IMG/VR virus record: IMGVR_UViG_3300042549_003496
Span: 1 to 45,859 of that record
Length of the DNA: 45,859 nt
From: a virus
Reading direction: 5' to 3' (one strand)
The translations under genes and the position numbers were made by a program. Under the pieces are notes generated by a model that saw nothing but the letters and a program-made list of their open reading frames with translations, had not been told where the DNA came from and searched no databases. Below are positions 1 to 45,859 of this stretch, piece after piece (within the stretch, counting starts at the first letter, position 1; the number at the start of each line of letters is the position of its first letter).

Positions 1-158
1 CACCAACCACCAACCCACCAAACCATGAATAACAAGTCCAACATCGCAACCATGATTCAAGCGTTGCAAATCCCCGAGACCATCACCCCCGCCGAATACC
101 CAAGCATCCGACTTGTCGGTGCCGATGGTAATGTCTTCAACCTGATGGGCATTGCGGC
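1..158. repeat. Left copy of the contig-end redundancy
   Basis: These bases recur at 45702-45859 with two substitutions (C19 against A45720, A32 against C45733). The simplest reading is that the contig is a closed circle with a trimming overlap, giving a unit of about 45,701 bp. A genuine direct terminal repeat is less likely, because the overlap stops inside a gene. The second mismatch changes codon 3 of the first gene from Asn to Thr. Confidence 0.85.
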
Positions 159-718: not shown

Positions 719-748
719 TTTTCTACCACCCCCCCTACCGAGTAAAAG
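719..748 (+). promoter_or_regulatory. Repeated promoter-like element, copy 1
   Basis: -35-like TTTTCT (719-724), 18-nt spacer beginning ACCA plus 7 C, -10-like TAAAAG (743-748). The gene ATG follows 20 nt later, leaving a predicted leader of about 14 nt. Confidence 0.65.
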
Positions 749-1129: not shown

Positions 1130-1159
1130 TTTTCTACCACCCCCCCTAACCAATAAAAC
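1130..1159 (+). promoter_or_regulatory. Repeated promoter-like element, copy 2 (leaderless type)
   Basis: -35-like TTTTCT, ACCA plus 7 C, -10-like TAAAAC ending at 1159. The ATG begins 6 nt later at 1166, where a normal start point would fall, so the mRNA is predicted to be leaderless. Confidence 0.7.
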
Positions 1160-1392: not shown

Positions 1393-1422
1393 TTTCCTAC
1401 CACCCCCCCTAATCCATAGATT
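1393..1422 (+). promoter_or_regulatory. Repeated promoter-like element, copy 3
   Basis: -35-like TTTCCT, ACCA plus 7 C, 18-nt spacing, -10-like TAGATT (1417-1422). The preceding gene stops at 1390, 2 nt before the element. The ATG is 20 nt downstream, after a short ACCAAC-type leader. Confidence 0.65.
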
Positions 1423-1645: not shown

Positions 1646-1840
1646 ATGAAAGTTGCTCAATACAATAAATACCTGAACCAATACTGGAATTACAGGGACA
1701 TGGAATGGGTGGGCGATATTAACGATGCTACACATATTGATTTTGAACATGTATGCCTGCATTATACGCTATTGGAACCGCCGCTGATGTGGCAGAAGGT
1801 TCCCGATGCTGGATTGGCTACCACCCCCCCTAACCAATAA
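1646..1840 (+). CDS. Hypothetical protein ending inside the next promoter element (64 aa)
   Basis: ATG 1646 (MKVAQYNKYLNQYW) is preferred over an upstream in-frame start at 1616 that would overlap the preceding gene. The product is aromatic-rich with no recognised family. Its last codons are translated from the next promoter-like element: the spacer encodes the tail ATTPPNQ and the TAA stop is the first half of the -10 hexamer TAAAAC. This is one of three genes whose stop codon comes from a -10. Confidence 0.7.
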   Translation: MKVAQYNKYLNQYWNYRDMEWVGDINDATHIDFEHVCLHYTLLEPPLMWQKVPDAGLATTPPNQ

Positions 1841-1843
1841 AAC
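1814..1843 (+). promoter_or_regulatory. Repeated promoter-like element, copy 4 (leaderless; contains upstream stop codon)
   Basis: -35-like TTGGCT, ACCA plus 7 C, -10-like TAAAAC (1838-1843). The TAA of the -10 ends the upstream gene, and the next ATG starts 6 nt after the -10 at 1850. Confidence 0.7.
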
Positions 1844-1849: not shown

Positions 1850-2152
1850 ATGGAAACCACCAACGACACCCCCGACATCACCGCCTCCCGTTACTGCGTC
1901 ATGGGGCCGAGCATCTCCTTCAACGCCGACTACATCACCCGTAGCGGTCACTACCGCCTCATCCCCCACCCCCACCGCTACCGAAATGAGGGCGAATCTA
2001 ATGAAGAATTCGATGCGTACATCGACAGCATCACTCTCATGCACCTCCCCGATACCTCCGAGGGCTTGGACAAGGCCGTAGAGGTGATGCGGATGTGGAA
2101 CACTGTGGGTGCCACTTGGGACGACTCGACTACCACCCCCCCTACCGAGTAA
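1850..2152 (+). CDS. Hypothetical cassette protein (100 aa)
   Basis: Predicted to be translated from a leaderless mRNA (-10 ends 6 nt before the ATG). The sequence has a beta-like N-terminal half and an acidic helical middle (NEGESNEEFDAYIDS, then GLDKAVEVMRMW). Its tail STTTPPTE is encoded by the next promoter spacer, and the TAA stop is the start of that element's -10. No family recognised. Open frames on both other strands here are shadows of the C-rich composition. Confidence 0.75.
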   Translation: METTNDTPDITASRYCVMGPSISFNADYITRSGHYRLIPHPHRYRNEGESNEEFDAYIDSITLMHLPDTSEGLDKAVEVMRMWNTVGATWDDSTTTPPTE

Positions 2153-2155
2153 AAG
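2126..2155 (+). promoter_or_regulatory. Repeated promoter-like element, copy 5 (contains upstream stop codon)
   Basis: -35-like TCGACT, ACCA plus 7 C, 18-nt spacing, -10-like TAAAAG (2150-2155). The TAA ends gene 1850-2152. A 35-nt C/A-rich leader (AGTACCAACAACCCACC...) precedes the next ATG. Confidence 0.65.
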
Positions 2156-2376: not shown

Positions 2377-2406
2377 TTCCCTACCACCCCCCCCATCCCT
2401 TAATCT
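2377..2406 (+). promoter_or_regulatory. Repeated promoter-like element, copy 6
   Basis: -35-like TTCCCT directly abuts the upstream TGA stop (2374-2376). ACCA plus 8 C, 18-nt spacing, -10-like TAATCT (2401-2406). The ATG lies 34 nt downstream. Confidence 0.65.
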
Positions 2407-2740: not shown

Positions 2741-2770
2741 TTGGCTACCACCCCCCCCACTGGGTAATGT
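2741..2770 (+). promoter_or_regulatory. Repeated promoter-like element, copy 7 (drives a non-coding stretch)
   Basis: -35-like TTGGCT, ACCA plus 8 C, 18-nt spacing, -10-like TAATGT (2765-2770). It is the only copy not followed closely by a convincing gene. The next 165 nt are a structured sequence. Confidence 0.65.
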
Positions 2771-2934: not shown

Positions 2935-2964
2935 TTTCCTACCACCCCCCTCCCTCGGTAAAAC
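2935..2964 (+). promoter_or_regulatory. Repeated promoter-like element, copy 8
   Basis: -35-like TTTCCT, ACCA plus 6 C, 18-nt spacing, -10-like TAAAAC (2959-2964). The ATG is 34 nt downstream after an AGTACCAACAACCCATCACC-type leader. Confidence 0.65.
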
Positions 2965-2998: not shown

Positions 2999-3283
2999 AT
3001 GCCCCCCGCCACCCGCTACGCCATCACTGTGCCCGTCACCCTCGCCGCTGGACAAGTCGTCCGCTTCCTGCCCAACACCCCCGACACCTGCACCTTTGAC
3101 ACCCACGATGCGGCCCGCAAAGCCCTCGAAAATGTATACGATGCCCTCATTGCCATGGGTGAACCCCACTCCGCCATGGCGATGCAAATCACCCCGTATA
3201 ATGTCATGCTTACGGGTTCCGATGGGCAACACCTGCCCATGCTCCTCCCCGCCAATCACATCCGCTTCTCCTCGGTGGGCTAG
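2999..3283 (+). CDS. Hypothetical cassette protein (94 aa)
   Basis: A small soluble protein with a beta-rich start (YAITVPVTLAAGQVVRF), a central helix (DAARKALENVYDAL) and a beta-rich end. No family is recognised. A 228-codon minus-strand frame over this locus is rejected as composition-driven. The TAG stop at 3281-3283 is the first half of the next element's -35-like hexamer TAGACT. Confidence 0.75.
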   Translation: MPPATRYAITVPVTLAAGQVVRFLPNTPDTCTFDTHDAARKALENVYDALIAMGEPHSAMAMQITPYNVMLTGSDGQHLPMLLPANHIRFSSVG

Positions 3284-3310
3284 ACTACCACCCCCCCCAC
3301 CCCGTAGATT
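3281..3310 (+). promoter_or_regulatory. Repeated promoter-like element, copy 9 (-35 holds upstream stop)
   Basis: -35-like TAGACT (its TAG ends gene 2999-3283), ACCA plus 8 C, 18-nt spacing, -10-like TAGATT (3305-3310). A 39-nt C/A-rich leader made of repeated CCACCCA units precedes the ATG. Confidence 0.65.
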
Positions 3311-3349: not shown

Positions 3350-3643
3350 ATGGCCCGCCTCAACACCCCCATCGCCTTCACCGCCTATCAGGCTTTCCCC
3401 GCCACTGACTCTCCCGAGTTGCACCACCGCCAGTTGCCCAAGGGCATCACTGACAGCGTGAAGCGGGAGTGGTACCGAACCGAGGGTGCCCGACTCCAAG
3501 CCCTCGCCATCGATGCGGGGAAGCAGGCCGAGGCCACTGGGTCTGCGTACTTCGCCTCCCTCGAAAGCACCCTTATCCACGAAGCGAAGCAGTGCGTACT
3601 TGCCTCCAAGCGGAAGAATGGGCATGTGGAGCGGGCTTCCTGA
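3350..3643 (+). CDS. Hypothetical cassette protein (97 aa)
   Basis: Starts MARLNTPIAFTAYQ; the second half is a long helical stretch rich in Arg, Ala and Glu (VKREWYRTEGARLQALAID and on). No family is recognised. The TGA stop (3641-3643) lies inside the next promoter element. Overlapping frames of 60-73 codons on either strand are shadows. Confidence 0.75.
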   Translation: MARLNTPIAFTAYQAFPATDSPELHHRQLPKGITDSVKREWYRTEGARLQALAIDAGKQAEATGSAYFASLESTLIHEAKQCVLASKRKNGHVERAS

Positions 3644-3666
3644 CCACCCCCCCCACCCAGTAGATT
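3637..3666 (+). promoter_or_regulatory. Repeated promoter-like element, copy 10 (leaderless type)
   Basis: -35-like TTCCTG, ACCA plus 8 C, 18-nt spacing, -10-like TAGATT (3661-3666). The upstream TGA stop overlaps the element, and the next ATG is 6 nt after the -10. Confidence 0.65.
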
Positions 3667-3887: not shown

Positions 3888-3917
3888 TCGACCACCACCC
3901 CCCCTATCCCGTAGATT
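3888..3917 (+). promoter_or_regulatory. Repeated promoter-like element, copy 11
   Basis: -35-like TCGACC, ACCA plus 7 C, 18-nt spacing, -10-like TAGATT (3912-3917). The ATG is 47 nt downstream after a leader consisting almost wholly of C and A. Confidence 0.65.
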
Positions 3918-35688: not shown

Positions 35689-35802
35689 TTATAGTGTTTC
35701 AGGCTCATACATAGGAGCCTGTTCAAGTTTAAGCAAAGCATAGTCAAGTTGATATATGTTTATACCAAGCAACCATGCGGCGATTTTCTTTTTTATAGCC
35801 AT
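35689..35802 (-). CDS. Very small protein (37 aa)
   Basis: MAIKKKIAAWLLGINIYQ then LDYALLKLEQAPMYEPETL: a basic amphipathic start and an acidic end. It fills a gap in the minus-strand operon and lies 3 bases before the next gene. Small size limits confidence; no family is recognised. Confidence 0.45.
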   Translation of the reverse strand: MAIKKKIAAWLLGINIYQLDYALLKLEQAPMYEPETL

Positions 35803-35924: not shown

Positions 35925-36141
35925 GGTAGTTTACCAATCTCTCTTGGGACATCTGAGCATAAACGGCCTCCCTCTTCTGGCTCCAAGTACTGGGCAAGGG
36001 GGGGAGGCAATGGCGATTCCCAGCAGTCCAGAGGGAGTGGTACTTAACATTGTATTTCCATGCGGCCTCCTTGCCACTTAGCCCTTCAGCCAATGCAAGT
36101 TTGTAAATATCTACCATGCTTAACTTTGTGGAATTACTCAT
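35851..36141 (-). CDS. Small helical protein, possible HTH (96 aa)
   Basis: The frame is open further upstream, but ATG 36141 (MSNSTKLSMVDIYKLALAEG) is preferred because the extension is antisense to the exonuclease gene. LSGKEAAWKYNVKYHSLW resembles a helix-turn-helix of the psq or resolvase type. The C-terminal half is a charged helix (QERLVNYRESLQKELEVV). It starts 5 bases after the exonuclease stop. Confidence 0.65.
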   Translation of the reverse strand: MSNSTKLSMVDIYKLALAEGLSGKEAAWKYNVKYHSLWTAGNRHCLPPLPSTWSQKREAVYAQMSQERLVNYRESLQKELEVVKAIQISRANPVVS

Positions 36142-36145
36142 AGGA

Positions 36146-36964: not shown

Positions 36965-36972
36965 AGGTATAT

Positions 36973-37002
36973 AGTATATGTTGGTGGGGGGGTAGTAGAA
37001 AA
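36973..37002 (-). promoter_or_regulatory. Repeated promoter-like element, copy 20 (minus strand)
   Basis: Minus-strand -35-like TTTTCT (37002-36997), ACTA plus 7 C, 18-nt spacing, -10 TATACT (36978-36973). The exonuclease ATG follows 8 nt later, giving a leaderless or almost leaderless mRNA. Confidence 0.65.
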
Positions 37003-37005
37003 GGG

Positions 37006-37521
37006 TTAAAGGGACATGATTCTATGGGCTTTTTCTAGGATTTTCGTCCTGTAGTTTGAGAGCCTGATGCTTTTGTAGTTAAAACCGTACATCTTAGCGT
37101 TGGCATAGCCCATGTTATAGCACATGTAAATGGTGATGGCTGTTGCTTGGATGTCGTCCTTCTTAAGTCTTGCCACGATTAGTTCGCAGTATGCCTTGGC
37201 TACAAGCCTAGACAGGTCGGCGTTCATGCAGACGGTGTTCCATGCGTTGATAGGTTCGCTGGAAGACATCTTGATAATTAGAAGATTTCTTTCGTCGGTC
37301 TTGTCATAAAACCCAAGTTTCATGTAGCGGAGTGCATCACGATATGCGGAATAAGAAATCTGGTACATGCCTAGGCTATGACCACAATCTCCTACGGCGT
37401 TTTCTCGCTTGCCAGATTCGATGATAGCAAGTCTGTCTAGGAACTTGGTGTCAATCGCCTGTTCGGCATGGCATGCAAAAGGACTAAGCCAAAGTAAAGC
37501 AGCCTTAATAGAGAAATTCAT
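37006..37521 (-). CDS. Secreted lysozyme/transglycosylase-like enzyme, probable endolysin (171 aa)
   Basis: A Sec-type signal (MNFSIKAALLWLSPFACHA, about residues 1-19) is followed by a lysozyme-superfamily core: LAIIESGKRENAVGD with probable catalytic Glu35, then SLGMYQISYSAY, and YMCYNMGYANA near the end, as in SLT-type enzymes. It would cut peptidoglycan in the periplasm and could leave the cell through the host Sec system. It is on the early strand, 3 kb from the holin gene. Its own promoter is not evident; readthrough from the ERF gene is possible. Confidence 0.75.
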   Translation of the reverse strand: MNFSIKAALLWLSPFACHAEQAIDTKFLDRLAIIESGKRENAVGDCGHSLGMYQISYSAYRDALRYMKLGFYDKTDERNLLIIKMSSSEPINAWNTVCMNADLSRLVAKAYCELIVARLKKDDIQATAITIYMCYNMGYANAKMYGFNYKSIRLSNYRTKILEKAHRIMSL

Positions 37522-37540
37522 AAATTATTAGTTAATGTAT

Positions 37541-37579
37541 TTAAAGATAAAGAAGGGCAGGGGTGTTACCCCCCGCCCT
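37541..37579 (-). terminator. Intrinsic terminator after the ERF gene
   Basis: On the minus strand GGGCGGGGG and CCCCTGCCC pair around a short loop, followed by a U-rich tail (TTCTTTATCTTT), directly downstream of the ERF stop codon. One G-T pair interrupts the stem. Confidence 0.6.
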
Positions 37580-37589
37580 CCAGTCGGGA

Positions 37590-38366
37590 TTAGAACGGAA
37601 CTCCGTCTTCTTCGGCGGCAGGCTCCTGCTCGCCTGTGGCATTCTGGTAGAGAGCGACTGCTGTGGCCTTAAGGTTGGTGTCCTTCTGAGAGACACGGCC
37701 CGTCTTTTCATACGGACGGGGTTCCCAGACCGTAGCCCAGTACTTAAGGTCATCAACTCCAAGGTCTCCGATTGCCATGCCCTTGCTTTTGCCAAATGGC
37801 AGGGTCATGGTAGGGTCAATCGAGCCATTAGACTGCACTGGTGCCTGCTGAGGGGCCGTTTGAGCGGCAATAGGTGCCGAGGGCTTGGGAACCCATGCCG
37901 CCGCACTCTTGGGCTTAACGGTAGCCTGTGCATCATCATCATCCGTAGCCACGCCTGAACAAGCCGCCAATCCGTAGCGTCTAAGATAAGTTATAAGAGA
38001 GCCAACATCCTGTCCGTTAGTTTCGTTGTCACAAGGAATCAGACATTCGTTGCCGATGTATGTACCGTTCTCATGGATGATAATGGTGTTAACGCCAATC
38101 GCCCAGCCATCCTTTTCGCCAATGCCGCTTCGGCTCACGGGGAATTGAAGAATGCCTAACTTATGCTTAGCAAAAATCGGTTTAAGTGCCGACAAATGTG
38201 CCGATAGGCTGGCGTACTTGGACTTATGAAAAGGATTGTTGCTGTCAGCAAGGATGTCCTTGGTTTCGGCAATAGCCTTAATGATGGCGGAAAAGAGAAC
38301 GCTCTTATCCTGATTGGTGTTGTCTTCTTGGTTCATAGGAAAAAGTAATCGGTTTAGTCGGCTCAT
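37590..38366 (-). CDS. erf: ERF-family single-strand annealing protein (258 aa)
   Basis: A recombination mediator that anneals complementary single strands. Family signs are NPFHKSKYASLSAHLSALKP (about 43-62) and LITYLRRYGLAACSGVATDD followed by DDA (about 123-145). The C-terminal part (LPFGKSKGMAIGDLGVDDLK) resembles the DUF3820/exodeoxyribonuclease X C-terminal domain often fused to such proteins. ATG 38366 fits the promoter copy 21, whose -10 TATAGT ends 8 nt upstream; ATG 38336 is the alternative. It is bounded downstream by a terminator. Confidence 0.87.
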   Translation of the reverse strand: MSRLNRLLFPMNQEDNTNQDKSVLFSAIIKAIAETKDILADSNNPFHKSKYASLSAHLSALKPIFAKHKLGILQFPVSRSGIGEKDGWAIGVNTIIIHENGTYIGNECLIPCDNETNGQDVGSLITYLRRYGLAACSGVATDDDDAQATVKPKSAAAWVPKPSAPIAAQTAPQQAPVQSNGSIDPTMTLPFGKSKGMAIGDLGVDDLKYWATVWEPRPYEKTGRVSQKDTNLKATAVALYQNATGEQEPAAEEDGVPF

Positions 38367-38374
38367 TGGTGTAC

Positions 38375-38402
38375 ACTATATGAGAAGGGGGGTAGTAGTC
38401 AA
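38375..38402 (-). promoter_or_regulatory. Repeated promoter-like element, copy 21 (minus strand)
   Basis: Minus-strand TTGACT (38402-38397), ACTA plus 6 C, 16-nt spacing, -10 TATAGT (38380-38375). The ERF ATG is 8 nt after the -10; counted at 18 nt the hexamer would be TAGTGT with a 6-nt gap. Near leaderless either way. Confidence 0.7.
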
Positions 38403-38410
38403 GCGGAACT

Positions 38411-38455
38411 GAAAGAAAAAAACTGGCGTACCCAGCACCACCTGTAATACGCCAG
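38411..38455 (-). terminator. Intrinsic terminator between helicase-loader gene and ERF promoter
   Basis: On the minus strand CTGGCGTA and TACGCCAG pair perfectly (8 bp) and are followed by seven T. It lies after the helicase-loader stop (38532) and just before promoter copy 21, isolating the two transcripts. Confidence 0.8.
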
Positions 38456-38531
38456 AACCACTCGGTTTTTGTTATGAGCCAACCTTGTCCCTTAGAACAA
38501 GACTGACACATTAGCCTATTCGAGGAAATAA

Positions 38532-39215
38532 TCAAGCGGATATTGCGTTAAAGTAATCACGAAGTCTTCTCACAAATGCAACGCCCGTCTCCTTGTTCTG
38601 AAAACGCTCAACAAGTCTGTCGCCAGTATAATTCGTGGTGATAATTGTAGTACGCAGGTTAGAGGTTCTATCGTCAATTACTGCAAATAGGTCTGCTTCC
38701 AGTCTGGCTGTAAGGCGTTCCTTGCCTAGGTCATCCAGTACCAGCACTGGAGCGGTTGCAAGAATGTCAAGAGCCTTGCTGTGAGACCTGTCATCAAACC
38801 CCTTCTCGATAATTCCCTCAAACTTTCTCATCTGCAAGAACATGGTACGCTTAGGGTACTCCTCAAGCCACAGCCTATTATAGACCAACCAAGCGGCTCG
38901 GCTCTTGCCAGTGCCAGTTTCTCCATGCAGGATAAGGCCGCACTTGCCCTCAGGCTTAACCCATACATTCGCCTTTGCAAGCATGTCATTAAACTTCACA
39001 TCTGTATTGTAAAACGCAAGAGGGTAGTCTGGGTGTGTGCTTACATGCTTAAGGTTATTACGCATAAAAACCTTATCGTAAGCAAACGGGTGTTGCCAGT
39101 GCGTCTCCCTTGTAAAGCATGTGGTGCAAACACGAATGTTTGTGTCGAACACGCCCTTGTCCTCATTCCATGCTGGGGTAGCATTATTTTCGCAGTGTGT
39201 GCATTTAGAAGCCAT
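38532..39215 (-). CDS. DnaC/IstB-like helicase loader ATPase (227 aa)
   Basis: An N-terminal zinc site (CTHC at 5-8 and CTTC at 30-33) precedes an AAA+ domain with Walker A GETGTGKS (98-105), Walker B VLVLDDLG (157-164) and sensor TTIITTNYT. This matches DnaC-type loaders that place the host replicative helicase at an origin. It is co-directional with and overlaps the initiator gene, the O-P arrangement known from lambda-like phages. No phage helicase is present, so host helicase use is inferred. Confidence 0.9.
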   Translation of the reverse strand: MASKCTHCENNATPAWNEDKGVFDTNIRVCTTCFTRETHWQHPFAYDKVFMRNNLKHVSTHPDYPLAFYNTDVKFNDMLAKANVWVKPEGKCGLILHGETGTGKSRAAWLVYNRLWLEEYPKRTMFLQMRKFEGIIEKGFDDRSHSKALDILATAPVLVLDDLGKERLTARLEADLFAVIDDRTSNLRTTIITTNYTGDRLVERFQNKETGVAFVRRLRDYFNAISA

Positions 39216-39879
39216 TACGGTGGTCTTGTTTGGTGATTATAGGTTTGTTGGTAAATTTATTTTCGGTTACTGCAAAAAGGCCAGCCCATCCCTTTTCAAT
39301 AGACTGGTTAATTGACTGGATTGCCCTAGCCTCGTCTTTCATCGACTTGAGGAAGTCGAATTGCTTGACAACAGTGGAGTTAACAAGTTTCTTCTTGGTT
39401 TCCTTTCTGTAGGCTATCCATGCCATCCATGCATCAGAAAACGCCTTTGAGTCATAAGGCATAACAGGTGTAGCCTCCATGCCCTTCACGGGCTGTATCT
39501 TTGTATCTATATCTTCTTTATTATCTTCTTTATTATATGGGTGCAATTCATTGCACTGGGGGGGTGCAATAGGATGCACTGGGGGGGTGCAGTGGAGTGC
39601 ATCCCTTAGTGCATTAGAATGCACCGTCCTAAGGATGCGGCGACCAATGGGAGTGTAAGTCCTAATAACCAACTTACGCTCAATCAACTTATTGAGAATG
39701 TTCTGCAACTGTCTCTTCTCTATGTTCGCCATGTTTGCAATGTAAATATTAGACGCAAAGCATCCGTCATCGCCATCAAGCGAATCGATAAGCGACAGGC
39801 ACAGTTTCTCTGTTAGTGATAGAGTGGAGTTCTCTAGCACTTCCTTGGGAATCCATATCCCAGTGAATTGGAGGTTCAT
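39205..39879 (-). CDS. Replication initiator with winged helix (lambda O-like, 224 aa)
   Basis: Residues about 10-86 form an HTH_36-type winged helix (LSLTEKLCLSLIDSLDGDDG; KRQLQNILNKLIERKLVIR). A Pro/His-rich linker (about 87-130) is encoded by a repeat array that looks like an origin. The C-terminal region (AWMAWIAYRKETKKKL) resembles replisome-organiser or DnaD-like parts that recruit the helicase. It overlaps the helicase-loader start by 11 bases. Promoter copy 22 lies 11 nt upstream. Confidence 0.83.
   Translation of the reverse strand: MNLQFTGIWIPKEVLENSTLSLTEKLCLSLIDSLDGDDGCFASNIYIANMANIEKRQLQNILNKLIERKLVIRTYTPIGRRILRTVHSNALRDALHCTPPVHPIAPPQCNELHPYNKEDNKEDIDTKIQPVKGMEATPVMPYDSKAFSDAWMAWIAYRKETKKKLVNSTVVKQFDFLKSMKDEARAIQSINQSIEKGWAGLFAVTENKFTNKPIITKQDHRNGF
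39500..39624. other. Candidate replication origin inside the initiator gene
   Basis: Four 16-nt elements of form GTGCA-N6-TGCAC begin at 39541, 39564, 39587 and 39609, a 22-23-nt period of about two helical turns. The first and last are nearly perfect inverted repeats with 7-bp arms; the middle two have 5-bp arms, and in element 3 one end is imperfect. Runs of seven G separate the first three. Next to them, at about 39500-39540, is an AT-rich stretch (TATCTATATC, TTATTATCTTC, TTATTATATGG) suitable for unwinding. Iterons plus an AT-rich region within an initiator gene is the layout of the lambda origin. Confidence 0.7.
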
Positions 39880-39890
39880 AACTACCTCAT

Positions 39891-39918
39891 ACTATACGAG
39901 GAAGGGGGTAGTAGTCAA
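39891..39918 (-). promoter_or_regulatory. Repeated promoter-like element, copy 22 (minus strand; contains upstream stop)
   Basis: Minus-strand TTGACT (39918-39913), ACTA plus 5 C, 16-nt spacing, -10 TATAGT (39896-39891). The TGA of the -35 is the stop codon of the upstream gene. The initiator ATG is 11 nt after the -10. Confidence 0.7.
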
Positions 39919-40385
39919 CTGGTCTTGTCGTCTTTTATTGGCGTAATGTCGATTATGTCCTTCTGGCCCTTTAACATACGATTGATGTCATCCTGCGAAA
40001 TACGCTGTATTCTATGCTCAACAACCGCTGTCGGTTGGTCTTGAAGAATTGCAATCTTGTCGATGATAATGCCTAATGCTGTAGGCAGAAAATTAGGGTG
40101 AATATTTTCTATTTCATCCGCCAACCTGCCTGCACCCTTGAGGCCAGCCGTCTTCATTAGTTTAGCCATATTAACCTTCCAGTCCTTGTCTGACACGCCT
40201 TCAGTGTCTTGCTTGATAGCGGAGATGCTTTGTGTAGCAAGGCCCGTCACCTCACGGATTTCATCACGGGTCTTGCCTTCCTTAAGCATACGCTCGCATA
40301 TTTCCCTACGCTCGGGCTCTATGTTCTTGGCGTTGCTGTGGTTCTGATTATTTCTAATCCGTTCTTTCTTCGACTCGTATTCCAT
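39915..40385 (-). CDS. Helix-turn-helix DNA-binding protein (156 aa)
   Basis: ATG 40385 (MEYESKKERIRNN) is preferred to an upstream start at 40589 that would run through the divergent promoter and the start of the resolvase gene. EICERMLKEGKTRDEIREVT and GLATQSISAIKQD form a clear resolvase-type helix-turn-helix. The C-terminal part (FLPTALGIIIDKIAILQDQP) is conserved in small phage DNA-binding proteins near replication genes. Candidate regulator of the repeated promoter element or small-terminase-like protein. Its own promoter is not evident. Confidence 0.75.
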   Translation of the reverse strand: MEYESKKERIRNNQNHSNAKNIEPERREICERMLKEGKTRDEIREVTGLATQSISAIKQDTEGVSDKDWKVNMAKLMKTAGLKGAGRLADEIENIHPNFLPTALGIIIDKIAILQDQPTAVVEHRIQRISQDDINRMLKGQKDIIDITPIKDDKTS

Positions 40386-40409
40386 GAAACGACAATAACA
40401 CACTGCCGC

Positions 40410-40437
40410 TTGACTACCACCCCCTTCTTTGTATAAT
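40410..40437 (+). promoter_or_regulatory. Repeated promoter-like element, copy 18 (best -10 match)
   Basis: TTGACT (40410-40415), ACCA plus 5 C, 16-nt spacing, perfect TATAAT (40432-40437). The ATG of the small membrane protein is 9 nt downstream. It sits at the divergence point of the two transcription directions. Confidence 0.75.
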
Positions 40438-40446
40438 GTAAGACCT

Positions 40447-40548
40447 ATGAGTTTTACCCCCATCACATTTATTGTAGGTACCCTATTTGCAGTCGGATAT
40501 ACAGCCGCATCGTCAATTGTTGACATTATTAAGGGGGAAGACAAGTGA
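40447..40548 (+). CDS. Small membrane protein upstream of RusA (33 aa)
   Basis: MSFTPITFIVGTLFAVGYTA forms one membrane segment, followed by a short charged tail (SSIVDIIKGEDK). The ATG lies 9 nt after a perfect TATAAT, and the stop overlaps the RusA start as GTGA, supporting expression. Function unknown. Confidence 0.6.
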   Translation: MSFTPITFIVGTLFAVGYTAASSIVDIIKGEDK

Positions 40549-41015
40549 TTGTCAATATACGGGTGCCTATTGCACCTCCACCTACGCATCAGGCGGCACT
40601 GCGTGTTCTAAAGAATAAGCATGGCAAAATGTTTATAGGCAAGATGTCCACCAGTAAAGCGTCTAAATGGGCTCTTAATTTTAGCGTACTAATTAACCAG
40701 TGGAAGCCTAAGCAACCTATGGAAGGGGCTATTCGTGCAAGCATTCATTTTGCTTATCCGTTGCTTGCAAGACATAAGAACAGGATGCTTGTAGAGGCCA
40801 AAATGACTAGGCCAGACTGCGACAACTTGGTTAAGTCCGTGTTAGACTGTTTGGTTAAAAGCGGATATATGATTGATGACGCAAATATAGCACACCTGTC
40901 GGTAACAAAAAGTTACCACTGGAAGGCACCTTTTGTTGATGTAATTATCACGGAAGAAAAGAACAACCCGTTTACAGACCCCACGCTGTGGAAGGAAGAT
41001 GAAGAAACCGTTTGA
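40545..41015 (+). CDS. rusA: RusA-family Holliday junction resolvase (156 aa)
   Basis: Cuts four-way DNA junctions to free branched intermediates before packaging. Family signs are TRPDCDNLVKSVLDCL (residues about 88-103, with Asp91 and Asp93) and DDANIAHL (about 111-118), the acidic residues that bind metal, plus an N-terminal PIAPPPTHQ. The GTG start overlaps the small membrane gene. The TGA stop lies in the -35-like hexamer of the next promoter copy. It completes a recombination set with the exonuclease and ERF protein. Confidence 0.9.
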   Translation: MIVNIRVPIAPPPTHQAALRVLKNKHGKMFIGKMSTSKASKWALNFSVLINQWKPKQPMEGAIRASIHFAYPLLARHKNRMLVEAKMTRPDCDNLVKSVLDCLVKSGYMIDDANIAHLSVTKSYHWKAPFVDVIITEEKNNPFTDPTLWKEDEETV

Positions 41016-41034
41016 CTACTACCCCCTGTATAAT
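41012..41034 (+). promoter_or_regulatory. Repeated promoter-like element, copy 19 (shortened)
   Basis: TTGACT (41012-41017), ACTA plus 5 C, then TATAAT (41029-41034), only 11 nt between hexamers against 16-18 elsewhere. The -35 contains the RusA stop codon. It may be a damaged copy, or the conserved part may serve as a regulator site. Confidence 0.45.
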
Positions 41035-41047
41035 GAAGAATGACAAC

Positions 41048-41497
41048 ATGAAGTCGGAAAGGATAACAGACAGGACGATTTACAGCATGTTTGTTGTATA
41101 TAACTGTTCTTATTATTTAAACGGCGGGCCTTTGTCTGACAGAACATGCACAATGCGAATCAATCGTGCATATAGAAAGTTGTTTGAGCAATCCCTTACA
41201 TTGCAGTGCCCTTGGACTCTTGCTGGCATAAAGAAAACAATGTCAAGAGTGTACTCAACCAATAGCAACGAAACAATTGTTGATTGCACACACGCTATTC
41301 AGATAGAGGTCGAAGACCCTAACAACGCTCCAGAAAAACTAGGCATGGGATTTATCTCACTTGTGCTTGACAATATAAACAATGACCATAATAATGGCAT
41401 CAATCAAGCCAACATAACTTCTCCTATTGCCGTAGAAGATATAATAAGAGGCTACCTTCAAATCGATAACACCATCTATTTCCCCCCACAACTATGA
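41048..41497 (+). CDS. Hypothetical protein (149 aa)
   Basis: ATG 41048 (MKSERITDRTIYSMFVVYNC) is preferred because the earlier in-frame ATG 41033 lies inside the -10 hexamer. A soluble alpha/beta protein with a conserved-looking core (RINRAYRKLFEQSLTLQCPW; TIVDCTHAIQIEVEDP). No family is recognised. ATGA overlap with the next gene. Confidence 0.65.
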   Translation: MKSERITDRTIYSMFVVYNCSYYLNGGPLSDRTCTMRINRAYRKLFEQSLTLQCPWTLAGIKKTMSRVYSTNSNETIVDCTHAIQIEVEDPNNAPEKLGMGFISLVLDNINNDHNNGINQANITSPIAVEDIIRGYLQIDNTIYFPPQL

Positions 41498-41709
41498 ACC
41501 AACGAGAAAAAACCCGTGTAGAAAACTACCTTTTGGCTTACCCGCTGATTGCACAAAACGCCGAAGCGAAGAAGGCTCTGGAACTTCTTTGCGTTGACCC
41601 CAAGATTGGATTCCCTGCTGGTGCAGATAACCAGCGTAAGTTCCGCATGGCTAGACGCAATCGAGACCTTGCGGTTGAAGCACTCAACGCTTCTGTCGCC
41701 AAGGGCTAA
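41494..41709 (+). CDS. Small helical protein (71 aa)
   Basis: Helical and basic (REKTRVENYLLAYPLIAQNA; RKFRMARRNRDLAVEALN). Coupled to the preceding gene by ATGA. It ends 5 bases before the tRNA cluster. No family is recognised. Confidence 0.65.
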   Translation: MNQREKTRVENYLLAYPLIAQNAEAKKALELLCVDPKIGFPAGADNQRKFRMARRNRDLAVEALNASVAKG

Positions 41710-41714
41710 TTTGA

Positions 41715-41786
41715 GTTCCCTTCGTTCAACGGATAGGACTTTGGTTTTCTACACCAATAATAGAGGTTCGAGTCCTCTAGGGAACA
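41715..41786 (+). tRNA. tRNA-Arg (anticodon TCT)
   Basis: Acceptor GTTCCCT/AGGGAAC, anticodon arm TTGGT-TTTCTAC-ACCAA, T arm AGAGG-TTCGAGT-CCTCT. It reads AGA, an Arg codon frequent in the late genes. CCA is not encoded. Confidence 0.92.
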
Positions 41787-41789
41787 CAT

Positions 41790-41861
41790 GCCCTGTTAGC
41801 ACAGTGGTAGTGCGACTGTTTTGTAAACAGTAGGTCGTTGGTTCAATCCCAACACAGGGCT
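41790..41861 (+). tRNA. tRNA-Thr (anticodon TGT)
   Basis: Acceptor GCCCTGT/ACAGGGC, anticodon arm ACTGT-TTTGTAA-ACAGT, T arm with GGTTCAATC. It reads ACA. CCA is not encoded. Confidence 0.92.
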
Positions 41862-41867
41862 CTCTTT

Positions 41868-41938
41868 GGGGACTTCTTTCAATGGTAGGAAACTCGGTTT
41901 GCATCCGAGCAATGGGGGTTCGATTCCCCCCGTCTCCA
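41868..41938 (+). tRNA. tRNA-Cys (anticodon GCA)
   Basis: Acceptor pairs GGGGAC with GTCTCC (one G-T pair), anticodon arm CTCGG-TTTGCAT-CCGAG, T arm GGGGG-TTCGATT-CCCCC. The exact first base may be 41867. Confidence 0.88.
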
Positions 41939-41945
41939 TTCTTTC

Positions 41946-42017
41946 GCATCAGTAACTCAATGGTAGAGTGTCAGTTTTCCAAACTGGTTGTTGCAGGTTC
42001 AAGCCCTGTCTGATGCA
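41946..42017 (+). tRNA. tRNA-Gly (anticodon TCC)
   Basis: Acceptor GCATCAG/CTGATGC, anticodon arm TCAGT-TTTCCAA-ACTGG, T arm containing GGTTCAAGC. It reads GGA, abundant in the late genes. Confidence 0.9.
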
Positions 42018-42022
42018 TTTTA

Positions 42023-42095
42023 TGGCGTGTAACTCAGCGGTTAGAGTGGGCTCTTTATAAGGGCTAAGTCGAGGGTTCGACTCCCTCCACGCCAA
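42023..42095 (+). tRNA. tRNA-Ile (anticodon TAT)
   Basis: Acceptor TGGCGTG/CACGCCA, anticodon loop TTTATAA giving TAT, T arm GAGGG-TTCGACT-CCCTC. It reads ATA. The anticodon stem has two G-T pairs. Promoter copy 12 starts 5 bases after its end. Confidence 0.85.
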
Positions 42096-42099
42096 CCAT

Positions 42100-42129
42100 T
42101 TCCCTACCACCCCCCTTTCCAAGTAAAAC
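42100..42129 (+). promoter_or_regulatory. Repeated promoter-like element, copy 12 (leaderless type)
   Basis: -35-like TTCCCT, ACCA plus 6 C, 18-nt spacing, -10-like TAAAAC (42124-42129). The ATG starts 6 nt later at 42136. Confidence 0.7.
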
Positions 42130-42135
42130 CAAACC

Positions 42136-42492
42136 ATGAATTACGAATTTGAAGACCTCGAAATTAAACACGGCTCATCCACCATCATTGTCTCTGGTAG
42201 GGCCGAGTATGAAATAGAAGACGAAGGCATTGGTGGCTACGAGTACTGGGGTGCTAAAGGCACCGACCACCAGTATGTTGCACGATTCGTTGACGCTACC
42301 ATTACGAATTACGAACTTGAAGTAACTCAAAAATCCTCGCCTATCCAAGGTGTTACCGAAACAGACCTACATGCATTTGAAAACATTGTCGTAGATATGC
42401 TTAACGACAATCAAGACCTATGCCTTGAACTTTCTGAAGACGGTGCCGCCGATGAAGATGAACCGCCCTGCGACCCTGATTATCTCGACTAA
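42136..42492 (+). CDS. Hypothetical acidic cassette protein (118 aa)
   Basis: Strongly acidic, beta-rich at the start (HGSSTIIVSGRAEYEIEDEG) with an acidic tail (EDGAADEDEPPCDPDYLD). Predicted leaderless start from the -10 6 nt upstream. It begins a four-gene transcript coupled by TAATG overlaps. No family is recognised; high acidity is seen in DNA-mimic proteins, but that is only a possibility. Confidence 0.7.
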   Translation: MNYEFEDLEIKHGSSTIIVSGRAEYEIEDEGIGGYEYWGAKGTDHQYVARFVDATITNYELEVTQKSSPIQGVTETDLHAFENIVVDMLNDNQDLCLELSEDGAADEDEPPCDPDYLD

Positions 42493-42725
42493 TGAAAAAG
42501 CAAACCTACACCCTACACCCTGTTCGTTTCTACTGGAACGACACTCCAGACGAAATCCTTGACGGCATCATTGCTGTTAATATGTTTGTCCCCGCTCAAG
42601 ATGGGGATGATGACAACCTTACTTTGTATAAGTTTTCTCAAGACGAGTGGACTAAAATCCAAAACGCCGTTGCCAATAGGCACGAATACGAAACCGACAC
42701 TTTTACTATTACCTTCCGAGAATAA
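42492..42725 (+). CDS. Hypothetical cassette protein (77 aa)
   Basis: Acidic small protein with an aromatic beta-rich start (TYTLHPVRFYWNDTPDEIL) and a helical segment (FSQDEWTKIQNAVANR). Starts by TAATG overlap and ends by TAATG with the next gene. No family is recognised. Confidence 0.7.
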   Translation: MKKQTYTLHPVRFYWNDTPDEILDGIIAVNMFVPAQDGDDDNLTLYKFSQDEWTKIQNAVANRHEYETDTFTITFRE

Positions 42726-42976
42726 TGCCCTATAATCCAATGTATGAAATCCTTCTTGGCAAAAGCCTCGATGCACTTGCACAATGCGACAAGGTAATCG
42801 CAGAAAAAATCTTCACTCTTGAACTTACCAACAAGCGTCTAGCCGAAGGGGTAAGCGTTACTTCTAGCAACAAGGTCGGCGGTATCGACCAGTTGGTAAC
42901 GCAAATCAGCGAACTTACTAAACTTAAGCGAGAGATTGAAGTAATCCTTAAACAAGGCAACAGCCTAGATATTTAA
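42725..42976 (+). CDS. Small helical protein (83 aa)
   Basis: Almost wholly helical with a coiled-coil pattern (EIKL-like heptads in VTQISELTKLKREIEVILKQ). TAATG-coupled to its neighbour. No family is recognised. Confidence 0.7.
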   Translation: MPYNPMYEILLGKSLDALAQCDKVIAEKIFTLELTNKRLAEGVSVTSSNKVGGIDQLVTQISELTKLKREIEVILKQGNSLDI

Positions 42977-42977
42977 C

Positions 42978-43256
42978 ATGTCCCTAATCCAATACAAAAA
43001 AGACGGCACCCCTGACTTCGTACTGCTTGCCTGTATGAATTTCCTATCTTCTTACCCCGACTGTTGGGATGGTGAGCAAATCCTTGACCACATTGAGTCC
43101 GAAGGATTCTGCCCTTCTACTGACAAGCGTGTTGCAGTGTGGGCCGCTGTTGAAAACAGCAATGCAGAAGAAATCCTAGAATCAATTTTGGCCTTGGCAG
43201 ATTGCTTTGAGTCTGCATACAACGCTGGTCGGGATTCTGCAAAAACCTCGGCTTGA
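42978..43256 (+). CDS. Hypothetical cassette protein (92 aa)
   Basis: A Cys-containing alpha-helical protein (FVLLACMNFLSSYPDCWDGE; ESILALADCFESAYNAGRDS). It starts 1 base after the preceding stop. The TGA stop lies in the -35-like TTGACC of promoter copy 13. No family is recognised. Confidence 0.7.
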   Translation: MSLIQYKKDGTPDFVLLACMNFLSSYPDCWDGEQILDHIESEGFCPSTDKRVAVWAAVENSNAEEILESILALADCFESAYNAGRDSAKTSA

Positions 43257-43282
43257 CCACTACCCCCCCTAACCCTTAAAAC
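43253..43282 (+). promoter_or_regulatory. Repeated promoter-like element, copy 13 (-35 holds upstream stop)
   Basis: TTGACC (its TGA ends gene 42978-43256), ACTA plus 7 C, 18-nt spacing, -10-like TAAAAC (43277-43282). The ATG is 8 nt downstream, so the mRNA is nearly leaderless. Confidence 0.72.
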
Positions 43283-43290
43283 GAAATCCT

Positions 43291-43797
43291 ATGACCAACC
43301 CAGAACAAACCCCCCCAGAAAACCTGCCTGCTGTTACCCACACTGTTAAGGTTCTCACCCGTAAGCATCACCTCAACTGCATCGAAAAGCCCATCACCAA
43401 GGAATACGCACAACAACTCTGGTACATCGTTTCTGCGGCCTGCGAAGGCGGTCTCGGTGGCGAATCTTGGGGCTGGTCTACCAACCGCAAGTCTGGTATC
43501 GGCGGCTGGAAGGCGTATAACGAAGCCGACCAGAATAATAACCACGACACCATCTATGTTGACCTCAAGTTCGTCAACCATGAAGATGATGAAGACCTGA
43601 CGGGCTACATCCGTGTTAATGCGGAATTCCTGCACAACAAGATGATTAAGTTCGTCAACGATGAAGACCAGCCCGCTTGGCTCCGCAAGCACTACGCCGA
43701 GTTCCTCGTCACCCGTGAAACCCCCGACAACGCCGATGCCGTCACTGCCGATGCCCTTATGCAGTATGCATTCGTTGACGAAATCGTCTTCGGTTGA
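43291..43797 (+). CDS. Hypothetical cassette protein (168 aa)
   Basis: One of the larger cassette products. A Pro-rich start (TNPEQTPPENLP), a Gly/Trp-rich centre (GGLGGESWGWSTNRKSGIGG) and an acidic beta/alpha second half (TIYVDLKFVNHEDDEDLTGY). No family is recognised. Its TGA stop lies inside the next promoter's TTGACC. Confidence 0.75.
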   Translation: MTNPEQTPPENLPAVTHTVKVLTRKHHLNCIEKPITKEYAQQLWYIVSAACEGGLGGESWGWSTNRKSGIGGWKAYNEADQNNNHDTIYVDLKFVNHEDDEDLTGYIRVNAEFLHNKMIKFVNDEDQPAWLRKHYAEFLVTRETPDNADAVTADALMQYAFVDEIVFG

Positions 43798-43823
43798 CCA
43801 CCACCCCCCCTACCCAGTAAAAC
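43794..43823 (+). promoter_or_regulatory. Repeated promoter-like element, copy 14 (leaderless; -35 holds upstream stop)
   Basis: TTGACC with the upstream TGA, ACCA plus 7 C, 18-nt spacing, -10-like TAAAAC (43818-43823). The ATG is 6 nt after the -10, a full example of stop, promoter and start in 39 bases. Confidence 0.75.
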
Positions 43824-43829
43824 ACAAAT

Positions 43830-44273
43830 ATGAAAAACCTAATCGCCAAATGGCTCCTCGGTATCACCAAAGAGCAACTCGTTCAAGTGCTTGTGGATAA
43901 CATTGAACTCAAGACCAAAATTGAGACGCTCGAGTCCGAAGAGGACGAAAAGTATATCCTGCGGTCTGACTTCGACCCTGATGATTACGACTTCGACCCG
44001 CTCCGTGATTACGACTTCAGCGAATTCCTCACCAGCGAAAACATGGGTGATGTGCTTGTCGATAACGAGGTTGTTCAGTCTGGAGACCTAGACCAAGCGT
44101 TGGACGGCTACGCCACGACTGAATATGTTGACGGCGAAATCACCAGCCTGAAGAATCGCCTCGATGCCCTTGAGGAAAAGGCGAAGCCCAAGCGTAAGAA
44201 GCCCTTGACTGATGCGGAGCAGATGGTCAAAGACCACATCGAACGCATTAGGGGCAAGAAAAAGGACAAGTAA
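43830..44273 (+). CDS. Hypothetical cassette protein, coiled-coil and acidic (147 aa)
   Basis: Helical start (KNLIAKWLLGITKEQLVQVL), a coiled coil (LKTKIETLESEEDEK), a Tyr/Asp/Phe-rich acidic repeat (DFDPDDYDFDPLRDYDFSEF), then a second helical segment (EITSLKNRLDALEEKAKPKR) with a basic tail (RGKKKDK). Predicted leaderless start. Possibly a scaffolding or DNA-binding accessory protein; unassigned. A terminator follows. Confidence 0.75.
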   Translation: MKNLIAKWLLGITKEQLVQVLVDNIELKTKIETLESEEDEKYILRSDFDPDDYDFDPLRDYDFSEFLTSENMGDVLVDNEVVQSGDLDQALDGYATTEYVDGEITSLKNRLDALEEKAKPKRKKPLTDAEQMVKDHIERIRGKKKDK

Positions 44274-44314
44274 TTTGCTGGTATTGGTTGCGTGTAAAAC
44301 CTTAAAAGGTTTAT

Positions 44315-44350
44315 GGGGACGATTGCCGTGGTGGTGGTCGTCCCCTTTTT
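44315..44350 (+). terminator. Intrinsic terminator whose U-tract overlaps the next -35
   Basis: GGGGACGA (44315-44322) and TCGTCCCC (44338-44345) pair perfectly (8 bp) and are followed by five T. The last two T begin the TTGACT of promoter copy 15, so end and start signals share bases. Confidence 0.85.
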
Positions 44351-44378
44351 GACTACCACCCCCCAACTTCCGTAAAAC
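44349..44378 (+). promoter_or_regulatory. Repeated promoter-like element, copy 15 (leaderless type)
   Basis: TTGACT, ACCA plus 6 C, 18-nt spacing, -10-like TAAAAC (44373-44378). The ATG begins 6 nt later at 44385. Confidence 0.75.
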
Positions 44379-44384
44379 CCAAAT

Positions 44385-44663
44385 ATGAAAACACCAAATT
44401 GCCGAGCCCGACAGAAAGTGATGAACCGCACCGAGTTCACTGGCAACAACACTTTCGGCATCTGGACAAAAGGCAATTATGTGGTATACTCCTACGGTCT
44501 GCACTTTCCGTTGCTTGCATATATCTATGCTGAAGAAAAGTGGTATCACAATAGCGACAAGTACAGCACAACCACCAGCAAACACCTGACTCAACTCCGC
44601 CCTCTTGGCGAAACCTTTCCCCTAAACACACAAGCCCTCCAATCCCTAATCCACCATGCCTAA
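44385..44663 (+). CDS. Hypothetical cassette protein (92 aa)
   Basis: Basic start (KTPNCRARQKVMNRTEF), then a pattern of short strands with Trp/Tyr (GIWTKGNYVVYSYGLHFPLL) and a Thr-rich C-terminus. Predicted leaderless start. It overlaps the next gene by 8 bases. No family is recognised. Confidence 0.72.
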   Translation: MKTPNCRARQKVMNRTEFTGNNTFGIWTKGNYVVYSYGLHFPLLAYIYAEEKWYHNSDKYSTTTSKHLTQLRPLGETFPLNTQALQSLIHHA

Positions 44664-44865
44664 ATACCGAGTAGCCGAAACCCTGCGTGTCGAATTCATC
44701 ACCGAAGGAGACACCCCTGACCACGCCGTTAAAAATTACCTTAAAGAATTCCGTGGTAACTTTGGTGCCAACGACAGCATTGAAGTTGTCCAAGGCGTTG
44801 ACCTCGAAATCAACTTCGTAAAGGAAGACGGCACCCTTGGCGATGAAGTCTTCACTGAAGAATAA
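44656..44865 (+). CDS. Small acidic protein (69 aa)
   Basis: Starts within the end of the previous gene. Sequence AETLRVEFITEGDTPDHAVK and FVKEDGTLGDEVFTEE: a short beta-alpha-beta acidic protein. No family is recognised. Co-transcribed with its neighbours. Confidence 0.7.
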   Translation: MPKYRVAETLRVEFITEGDTPDHAVKNYLKEFRGNFGANDSIEVVQGVDLEINFVKEDGTLGDEVFTEE

Positions 44866-44869
44866 TCCC

Positions 44870-45112
44870 ATGCCCAAGTTAAACAATAAAGGCGAAAAGA
44901 CCTTCGACCACATCGACTCCGATGTATCCAAGAATATGACCAAAAGCCTCACGGAATGCGTGTTAATTTGTGAGGGCAGGATGGAGGCTGATGAGGAAAC
45001 CATAATCCAGTGCTGGCAGGAGTTGATTGACACTGGCGTTGTGTGGACTCTGCAAGGCTCCTTCGGCAGGATGGCTAGGTCGTTAATCGATAGCGGCGAT
45101 TGCCATCGATAG
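44870..45112 (+). CDS. Hypothetical cassette protein (80 aa)
   Basis: ATG 44870 (MPKLNNKGEKTFDHIDSDVS) is preferred over ATG 44837, which lies inside the preceding gene. Helical, mildly acidic, ending SLIDSGDCHR. The C-terminal half (EETIIQCWQELIDTGVVWTL) is a helix-turn-strand pattern common in small phage regulators. TAG stop lies in the next -35-like TAGACT. Confidence 0.7.
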   Translation: MPKLNNKGEKTFDHIDSDVSKNMTKSLTECVLICEGRMEADEETIIQCWQELIDTGVVWTLQGSFGRMARSLIDSGDCHR

Positions 45113-45139
45113 ACTACCACCCCCCCTTACCGATAAAAC
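45110..45139 (+). promoter_or_regulatory. Repeated promoter-like element, copy 16 (-35 holds upstream stop)
   Basis: TAGACT (its TAG ends gene 44870-45112), ACCA plus 7 C, 18-nt spacing, -10-like TAAAAC (45134-45139). The ATG is 30 nt downstream after a C/A-rich leader. Confidence 0.7.
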
Positions 45140-45169
45140 GAAATCTCACCACTAACCAAATAACTACCC

Positions 45170-45682
45170 ATGTCCCTCAACTGGAAAATGCCCGAAGACT
45201 TCAATAAGAAACTCATTTGGAATGACGCTAACGATGGCGAAATCCACACGGAGTTGCACTGCCTCATCTTCACTTGCATGCATCTTTTGCACAACATCGA
45301 TGGCGAAATGACTGACGATAAGTTGTGCGAAATTGACCGCCGCCTGCGTCTTCTTGTTGGCTTAGACTGCGTAATGAAGTGGAGCGTTGGCGATGAAGGC
45401 GACTACCGCATGCACACTGTCAATCTGGAGACCGTCATCCGCTACTGGGGCTTGTCCACGAATTGCGGACATTACTCCGCCTCCAAGTGGAATACCCGAC
45501 TGATGAAAATCAGCAAGTCCTCCCAGTGGGATATTAAATATGCCAAGGAGCAGGCGTTGAAGAACATTGCCGCTTTCCCTGACCTGACCCAGCCCTATCG
45601 TCAGTACAATGAACTCATGGACTACAATAAGTCCAAGGCCAAAGAAGCCACCGACTTGGCTACCACCCCCCCCACCCCGTAA
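45170..45682 (+). CDS. Hypothetical cassette protein ending in a promoter element (170 aa)
   Basis: The largest cassette product: helical, with Cys/His pairs (HTELHCLIFTCMHLLHNIDG), a segment LCEIDRRLRLLVGLDCVMKW and an aromatic C-terminal part. Its tail ATTPPTP is encoded by the spacer of promoter copy 17, and the stop TAA is that element's -10 TAATCT. The Cys/His pattern might bind metal, but no family is recognised. Confidence 0.75.
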   Translation: MSLNWKMPEDFNKKLIWNDANDGEIHTELHCLIFTCMHLLHNIDGEMTDDKLCEIDRRLRLLVGLDCVMKWSVGDEGDYRMHTVNLETVIRYWGLSTNCGHYSASKWNTRLMKISKSSQWDIKYAKEQALKNIAAFPDLTQPYRQYNELMDYNKSKAKEATDLATTPPTP

Positions 45683-45685
45683 TCT
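45656..45685 (+). promoter_or_regulatory. Repeated promoter-like element, copy 17 (contains upstream stop; drives first gene)
   Basis: TTGGCT, ACCA plus 8 C, 18-nt spacing, -10-like TAATCT (45680-45685). It ends the gene before the circle junction and, 40 nt later, starts the gene that crosses it (25-324). Confidence 0.7.
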
Positions 45686-45701
45686 AACATCGTCACTTCG
45701 A

Positions 45702-45859
45702 CACCAACCACCAACCCACAAAACCATGAATACCAAGTCCAACATCGCAACCATGATTCAAGCGTTGCAAATCCCCGAGACCATCACCCCCGCCGAATAC
45801 CCAAGCATCCGACTTGTCGGTGCCGATGGTAATGTCTTCAACCTGATGGGCATTGCGGC
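45702..45859. repeat. Right copy of the contig-end redundancy
   Basis: A second reading of bases 1-158 with two substitutions. It carries the first 45 codons (134 bases) of the gene at 25-324, with Thr in place of Asn at codon 3. Not a separate gene. Confidence 0.85.

Follow-up and report, generated by a model that had tools for sequence, protein, structure and literature searches.

Small accessory genes of an uncultured phage stand in units behind copies of a lineage-specific promoter-like element at which the units are probably exchanged

The window analysed here is the whole of an uncultured phage record in IMG/VR, IMGVR_UViG_3300042549_003496 (45859 bases; complete or nearly complete, with a circle of 45.7 kb), and our subject is an array of small genes that runs from position 42100 across the circle junction to 4186, together with a short promoter-like element that opens most of its units. 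We consider it probable (roughly 0.72) that the array is an accessory early region in which units sharing one promoter are exchanged by recombination at the promoter copies, and that a factor reads the promoter spacer. A first-pass annotation had described about 20 small genes of unknown function here, most behind an element of their own, as interchangeable cassettes; the array does hold 17 elements and about 23 such genes, and the cassette interpretation as a whole is partly supported. Numbers with F, and with G or L, are our handles for genes and for related contigs, respectively.

Results

An array of oriented elements

Each array element consists of a -35-like hexamer, 18 nt starting ACCACCCCC or ACTACCCCC, and a TA hexamer resembling a -10 (TAAAAC, TAAAAG, TAGATT, TAATCT or TAATGT). 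On the plus strand of the array and the flank upstream of it, this format with 18-nt spacing occurs 18 times, 17 times within the array, and it never occurs on the minus strand, against 0.05 on average and 1 at most in 300 dinucleotide shuffles. Six elements lie in 42100-45685 (-35 starts at 42100, 43253, 43794, 44349, 45110 and 45656) and eleven past the junction (719, 1130, 1393, 1814, 2126, 2377, 2741, 2935, 3281, 3637 and 3888). The element is asymmetric, and all array elements (18/18) point the same way as the genes. The copies had been called identical, which they are not: spacer identity among them is 0.75, and only a core of ACC/TACC and a C-run is near-invariant. Conservation is best in the 11-13 nt proximal to the -35, leaves the last 4-5 spacer bases free, returns at the TA, and falls sharply upstream of the -35; the -35 hexamer itself has decayed in about half of the copies, with the C block ACCACCCCCC retained. 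Outside the array the element class is found only ahead of replication-block genes, always pointing at the gene, with 16-nt spacing in three copies that have a near-perfect -10 (40410, 39918 and 38402). The late region holds no element copies.

Ten genes of 69-170 aa lie in 42100-45685 and about 13 in 1-4200, in units of one to four; in detail, and as a correction to the earlier description of genes standing mostly alone or in pairs, one unit has four genes (42136-43256) and another three (44385-45112), and no clear ORF follows the element at 2741. In about 7 of 18 copies the gap from -10 to ATG is 6-8 nt, so that the ATG and the expected transcription start coincide; in the remainder it is 20-47 nt, with A/C-rich leaders. 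Counted by unit, this gap is 6-9 nt in about 40% and mostly 14-47 nt in the others. The stop codons of many upstream genes fall within the element, and the remark that units have nearly no spare bases was right. Where such a stop is absent, translation runs on through the promoter and adds a T-T-P-P tail (D-T-P-P in relatives), and the end of the F05 gene varies with the promoter that comes after it.

Turnover of units and hybrid elements

Orthologous arrays are present in G004, G033, G019 and G034, and both array ends in G007; L127 is a second assembly of G004 (99.99% identical). The backbone order F03-F08-F09-F10-F04-F05-F06-F01-F11, followed by F28 and F22, is common to the window phage, G004 and G019, with backbone proteins ~40-60% identical between the first and the other two. 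Because order is largely conserved, we regard the array as a stable backbone to which units are added, from which they are lost, and within which they are sometimes moved; the growing array that had been suggested is not shown, as losses and gains both occur.

In G004 and G019, whose late proteins are 99% identical, the arrays are distinguished by the F20 block, the F28 and F29 units and the F19 gene; the first three bear out the predicted presence or absence of single units. Units are also permuted: F30-F24-F25 in G004 is F25-F24-F30 in G019 (the F30 copy of G019 being read from sequence), and the order F06-F01-F11-F15 of the other arrays is replaced in G034, in one contig, by F11-F15-F01-F06. 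The complete conservation of order and content that would have spoken against the cassettes is thus not seen among these relatives.

Local alignments of G004 and G019 break off and resume at elements, and several junctions lie inside the element, as had been foreseen, the F19 indel excepted. When the upstream and downstream flanks of each element were matched separately to G004 elements, 4 of 14 elements in G019 proved to be hybrids, with flanks matching two different G004 elements, as did 0 of 9 in G033. The sharpest hybrid, G019 481, matches G004 4378 exactly as far as TTAGATTGATT and G004 4741 from GATTCCATGAGC onward, a switch that places the crossover in the GATT immediately downstream of the -10. 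On these sequence comparisons, recombination between element copies demonstrably takes place.

Concerted change of the element between lineages

In the relatives the element at the corresponding places reads TTGACA-CCCCCCTCCC(TCC)-TATAAC/TAAAAC, also with exactly 18 nt, a clear sigma-70 format with a total of 36-40 bits per genome from the -35 through the -10. A third type, TTGACA-n-CCCTGCACAT-n-TATAAC/GATACT, is found in the outgroup G015, where the spacing is 17 nt. In early-protein and late-protein trees alike, the window phage is the sister of the array-bearing clade of relatives (TTGACA-CCCCCC) and G015 lies outside, these nodes having 100% support. Between the window phage and G004, spacers of orthologous promoters are 0.51 identical and those of non-orthologous promoters 0.52 (five shared units); close pairs within the sister clade have orthologous spacers 0.84-0.97 identical. 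Judged from sequence, the element type is lineage-specific and the regulon has been switched in concert. Two longer exact patterns of the window-type element were absent from other viral contigs, and a 15-mer gave single chance-like matches.

Elements, units and neighbouring features

The elements and their genes are as follows, in the order of the array, with the replication-block copies last.

42100..42129, plus strand: element TTCCCT-18-TAAAAC, ATG 6 nt past the -10; genes 42136-42492, 42492-42725, 42725-42976 and 42978-43256
43253..43282, plus strand: element TTGACC-18-TAAAAC, ahead of gene 43291-43797 (phrog_2355, F09)
43794..43823, plus strand: element TTGACC-18-TAAAAC, ahead of gene 43830-44273 (F10)
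44315..44345, plus strand: terminator-like hairpin (z -5.2 for 44270-44345) directly upstream of the element at 44349; equivalent hairpin region at the corresponding position in G004
44349..44378, plus strand: element TTGACT-18-TAAAAC; genes 44385-44663 (F04), 44656-44865 (F05) and 44870-45112 (F06, phrog_3908)
45110..45139, plus strand: element TAGACT-18-TAAAAC, 30-nt gap, then gene 45170-45682 (F01)
45656..45685, plus strand: element TTGGCT-18-TAATCT, overlapping the 3' end of gene 45170-45682 and encoding its TTPPTP tail
25-324: gene (F11) predicted to be driven across the junction by the element at 45656..45685
719..748, plus strand: element TTTTCT-18-TAAAAG, ahead of gene 769-1122
1130..1159, plus strand: element TTTTCT-18-TAAAAC, ATG 6 nt past the -10; gene 1166-1390
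1393..1422, plus strand: element TTTCCT-18-TAGATT; genes 1443-1640 (F28) and 1646-1840
1814..1843, plus strand: element TTGGCT-18-TAAAAC, overlapping the end of gene 1646-1840; gene 1850-2152
2126..2155, plus strand: element TCGACT-18-TAAAAG, overlapping the end of gene 1850-2152; gene 2191-2376
2377..2406, plus strand: element TTCCCT-18-TAATCT, ahead of gene 2441-2740
2741..2770, plus strand: element TTGGCT-18-TAATGT, followed at 2776-2925 by two hairpins (z -1.7, weak)
2935..2964, plus strand: element TTTCCT-18-TAAAAC, ahead of gene 2999-3283
3281..3310, plus strand: element TAGACT-18-TAGATT, ahead of gene 3350-3643 (F22)
3637..3666, plus strand: element TTCCTG-18-TAGATT; ATG 3673 starts a 23-residue hydrophobic ORF, 3673-3744, read from sequence
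3888..3917, plus strand: element TCGACC-18-TAGATT, ahead of gene 3965-4186
40410..40437, plus strand: element of the same class, spacer 16 nt, -10 hexamer TATAAT, ahead of a 33-aa ORF and RusA (40545-41015)
41012..41034, plus strand: shortened element copy TTGACTACTACCCCCTGTATAAT, ahead of gene 41042-41497
39891..39918, minus strand: element TTGACT-16-TATAGT, ahead of the O-like replication initiator gene 39205-39879
38375..38402, minus strand: element TTGACT-16-TATAGT, ahead of the Erf-like annealing protein gene 37590-38366
36973..37002, minus strand: element TTTTCT-18-TATACT, ahead of the exonuclease VIII-like gene 36146-36964
39915..40385, minus strand: gene of a helix-turn-helix (HTH) protein of 156 aa, well conserved across all relatives, between two elements
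1..158 and 45702-45859, no strand: terminal direct repeat forming the circle junction, 158 bp with 2 mismatches

The junction is biologically continuous, the genes at 45170 and 25 being adjacent in G004 and G019 as well. Terminator-like sites occur at chance level, the hairpin at 44315-44345 being the one convincing hairpin next to an element. The very short hydrophobic ORF directly behind the element at 40410 (40447-40548, 33 residues) has counterparts of 33-35 residues at the same position in relatives. Two noncoding stretches of the array, 547-718 (z -2.1) and 2776-2925, have hairpin potential, and weakly folding noncoding stretches also lie between F16 and F17 in G004 and G019; these array stretches may possibly be small RNAs, though the folding evidence is weak. 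Five tRNA genes (Arg-TCT, Thr-TGT, Ala-TGC, Gly-TCC and Ile-TAT; 41715-42098) adjoin the first array element, with tRNA-like genes at the same position in G004, and an Rfam scan found these five and nothing else. At the downstream end of the array a G-run (4258-4275), shared in position with G004, G019 and G007, resembles an inverted C-rich site.

Gene content and nearest phages

Array proteins compared with PHROGs, Pfam and PADLOC matched only families of unknown function or fell below threshold, and AlphaFold models of two of them had pLDDT <50. Profile matches of F29 to the gene at 1850, F17 to 2999, F23 to 3965, F30 to 2191 and F16 to 2441 stood at the top of the background and were too weak to claim. 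Presence and absence between relatives shows that the genes are accessory; the suggestion that they are morons or anti-host genes is unproven, there being no match to a family of known function.

The genome also encodes a terminase, a major head protein and an SU10-like portal (the portal below the Pfam cut-off), and its replication-recombination block comprises an O-like initiator, a DnaC-like loader, an Erf-like annealing protein, an exonuclease VIII-like nuclease and RusA. A 3974-residue ORF (21110-33034) makes up a quarter of the genome, with no Pfam match and PHROG matches only of unknown function. No integrase, known repressor family or RNA polymerase family was matched among the proteins scanned; for the polymerase this includes the 3974-aa protein (Pfam, PHROGs), and a very divergent one is possible. 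Shine-Dalgarno sites were seen neither in the array nor ahead of most late genes, and since hardly any gene, late or accessory, has one, the phage appears to have a host with Shine-Dalgarno-independent initiation. A host search by bacterial genome scan gave a single 26% match, in Pyramidobacter, and was not informative.

A near-identity search of 33000-45859 against annotated phages gave no match, and the closest annotated phages are distant (best major head protein ~27-30%, best terminase 32%). Head-protein relatives occur in 80 viral contigs, the closest at 82-87%; more distant relatives, with a major capsid protein at ~62%, showed no array promoters. A search for relatives baited with the exonuclease found none, one with the 45170 protein only L127, and an F09 profile search only the arrays already known.

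Discussion

We propose that the units of one to four small genes form an accessory early region, most units beginning with a copy of a single phage-specific promoter composed of a -35 region, a C-rich block at about -30 to -20, 18-nt spacing and a -10. The start codon would often coincide with the transcription start, giving leaderless transcripts, and would otherwise follow a short A/C-rich leader without Shine-Dalgarno. The promoter copies may also act as short homology patches: recombination between two of them would fuse one copy's upstream half with the other's downstream half, most likely by means of the phage's own Erf/exonuclease VIII/RusA set, and whole units would be deleted, inserted or moved with each gene retaining a working promoter. 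The genes for Erf, exonuclease VIII and RusA themselves stand behind the same element class. Erf-type recombinases efficiently recombine diverged DNA, and Red-beta requires ~30 bp (PMC3945230).

Within a lineage the copies keep a single spacer type and vary jointly, for which a trans-acting DNA-binding factor that recognises the C-rich block would be the simplest explanation. Such a factor has probably changed along with the regulon, and we infer that it would read the C block in a logic like that of an activator substituting for a -35 contact. The HTH protein encoded at 39915-40385 is no more than a candidate for this role. A fuller version of this idea is offered only tentatively: a regulon of about 20 dispersed promoters might have been re-specified in concert between the window phage and the sister clade (CTACCACCCCCCC versus TTGACA-CCCCCCTCCC), the gene backbone unchanged, as a spacer-reading phage factor co-evolved and largely replaced the -35 hexamer, with the repeats as built-in exchange points. 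If this is true, lineages would keep private gene pools, exchanging units freely inside a lineage and offering the wrong promoter to others.

Several observations weigh against the proposed reading. Nearly all gene boundaries bear an element, so that breakpoints at boundaries are weak evidence in themselves and only the hybrids count; the F19 indel lies away from any element. The elements in 1-4500 were not called by a sigma-70 scan and are poor sigma-70 matches, which makes a plain sigma-70 promoter doubtful there. Only five independent arrays were found, and several contigs are fragmentary. G033 (L146 1-2274) leaves the other arrays shortly past the start of F11 and enters 40% GC sequence without elements, and may there be either a chimaeric contig or the product of a real exchange.

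The alternative that survives best, possible though unlikely, is that the conserved block is an operator for a phage repressor or silencer in the style of stoperators or CIR, recombination at the sites being incidental. It accounts for conservation that peaks near the -35 and does not cover the whole promoter, for a -35 hexamer that decays while the C block persists, and for a conserved HTH protein encoded between two elements. Each site, however, includes a -10-like hexamer at a constant spacing and is aimed at a gene like a promoter, none lies in the late genes, and neither an integrase nor a known repressor family was found among the proteins scanned. Slightly less probable is gene conversion that homogenises the copies with no factor reading the spacer. 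Recombination between copies is demonstrable, and copies of one genome are more alike than orthologues in the sister lineage; but conversion tracts should not respect limits such as those seen here, with a near-invariant C block, a variable stretch before the -10, a conserved TA and a drop upstream of the -35, and promoter-specific spacer variants persist in close relatives. We think it very improbable that the element serves, as in T7, as promoter for an RNA polymerase which the phage encodes or modifies, with lineage types reflecting polymerase specificity. A genome-wide, co-oriented and lineage-specific consensus switched in concert between sister phages would suit that logic, as would a 3974-aa protein without assigned function; against it stand the lack of a polymerase family match among the scanned proteins, the textbook sigma-70 hexamers of the relatives, and sites in the early region and not the late. 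Misjoining of contigs at short repeats, which could have produced false unit differences given that several contigs start or stop inside the array and G033 is possibly chimaeric, is likewise very improbable, since each key G004 or G019 arrangement recurs in at least two contigs (L127 matching G004, F20 in G004 and G033, F30-F18 in G019 and G007, F05-F06 in G019 and the window) and so is no single-assembly error, and since the shared stretches of ~20-40 nt are below typical read length.

Exchange of units at promoter copies remains our preferred reading. Phage accessory genes turn over fast, direct natural traces of crossover are uncommon, and phage genomes are said usually to lack repeats (PMC3945230). 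The hybrid promoters place exchanges within a regulatory element of 30-40 nt in a phage with Erf and exonuclease genes of its own, and sister lineages with different genome-wide promoter types provide a natural series on how regulon specificity changes without gene loss.

Comparison with known systems

Many near-identical sites per genome, varying between related phages together with a phage protein, are familiar from T7/T3-type promoters, the phiC31 CIR and L5 stoperators. The present sites resemble these in number and in lineage-dependent sequence; unlike them, they are confined to the early/accessory region, and no phage RNA polymerase or repressor was found among the scanned proteins.

The SAS/ESAS of Cluster K mycobacteriophages are also repeated, gene-oriented elements close upstream of many small genes, with subcluster-specific consensus positions and a proposed role as recombination targets, and they lie at the ribosome-binding site and can pair with 16S rRNA (PMC3203893). 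The element described here differs in lying at -35 to -10, without a Shine-Dalgarno sequence.

Closer are the promoter early stem-loops (PeSLs) of T4-type phages (Arbiol et al. 2010, Comeau et al. 2014), described as short intergenic repeats with an early sigma-70-type promoter among small accessory genes, and reported to mediate gene shuffling between relatives (PMC4503421). Shuffling between relatives at repeats occurs here too; the elements of the relatives have a clear sigma-70 format (TTGACA-18-TATAAC), and those of the window a degenerate -35. In contrast to PeSLs, the element contains no stem-loop terminator, belongs to a small non-T4 lineage, and is conserved in a C-rich spacer whose sequence varies from one sister lineage to another.

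Cluster O mycobacteriophages carry more than 30 copies of a 17-bp repeat and have some leaderless sigma-70-like promoters, and indels in these phages are explained by inter-repeat recombination; the repeats are perfect dyads without fixed orientation and lie partly within genes (PMC4351075). Indels attributable to recombination between repeats are found here as well (the F20 block, F28 and F29), but our element is asymmetric, always gene-oriented, and contains a -35 and a -10. As the element lacks one defining feature of each, the stem-loop of PeSLs and the dyad symmetry of Cluster O repeats, we file it under neither: it works like PeSL cassettes and Cluster O repeats, yet differs from both.

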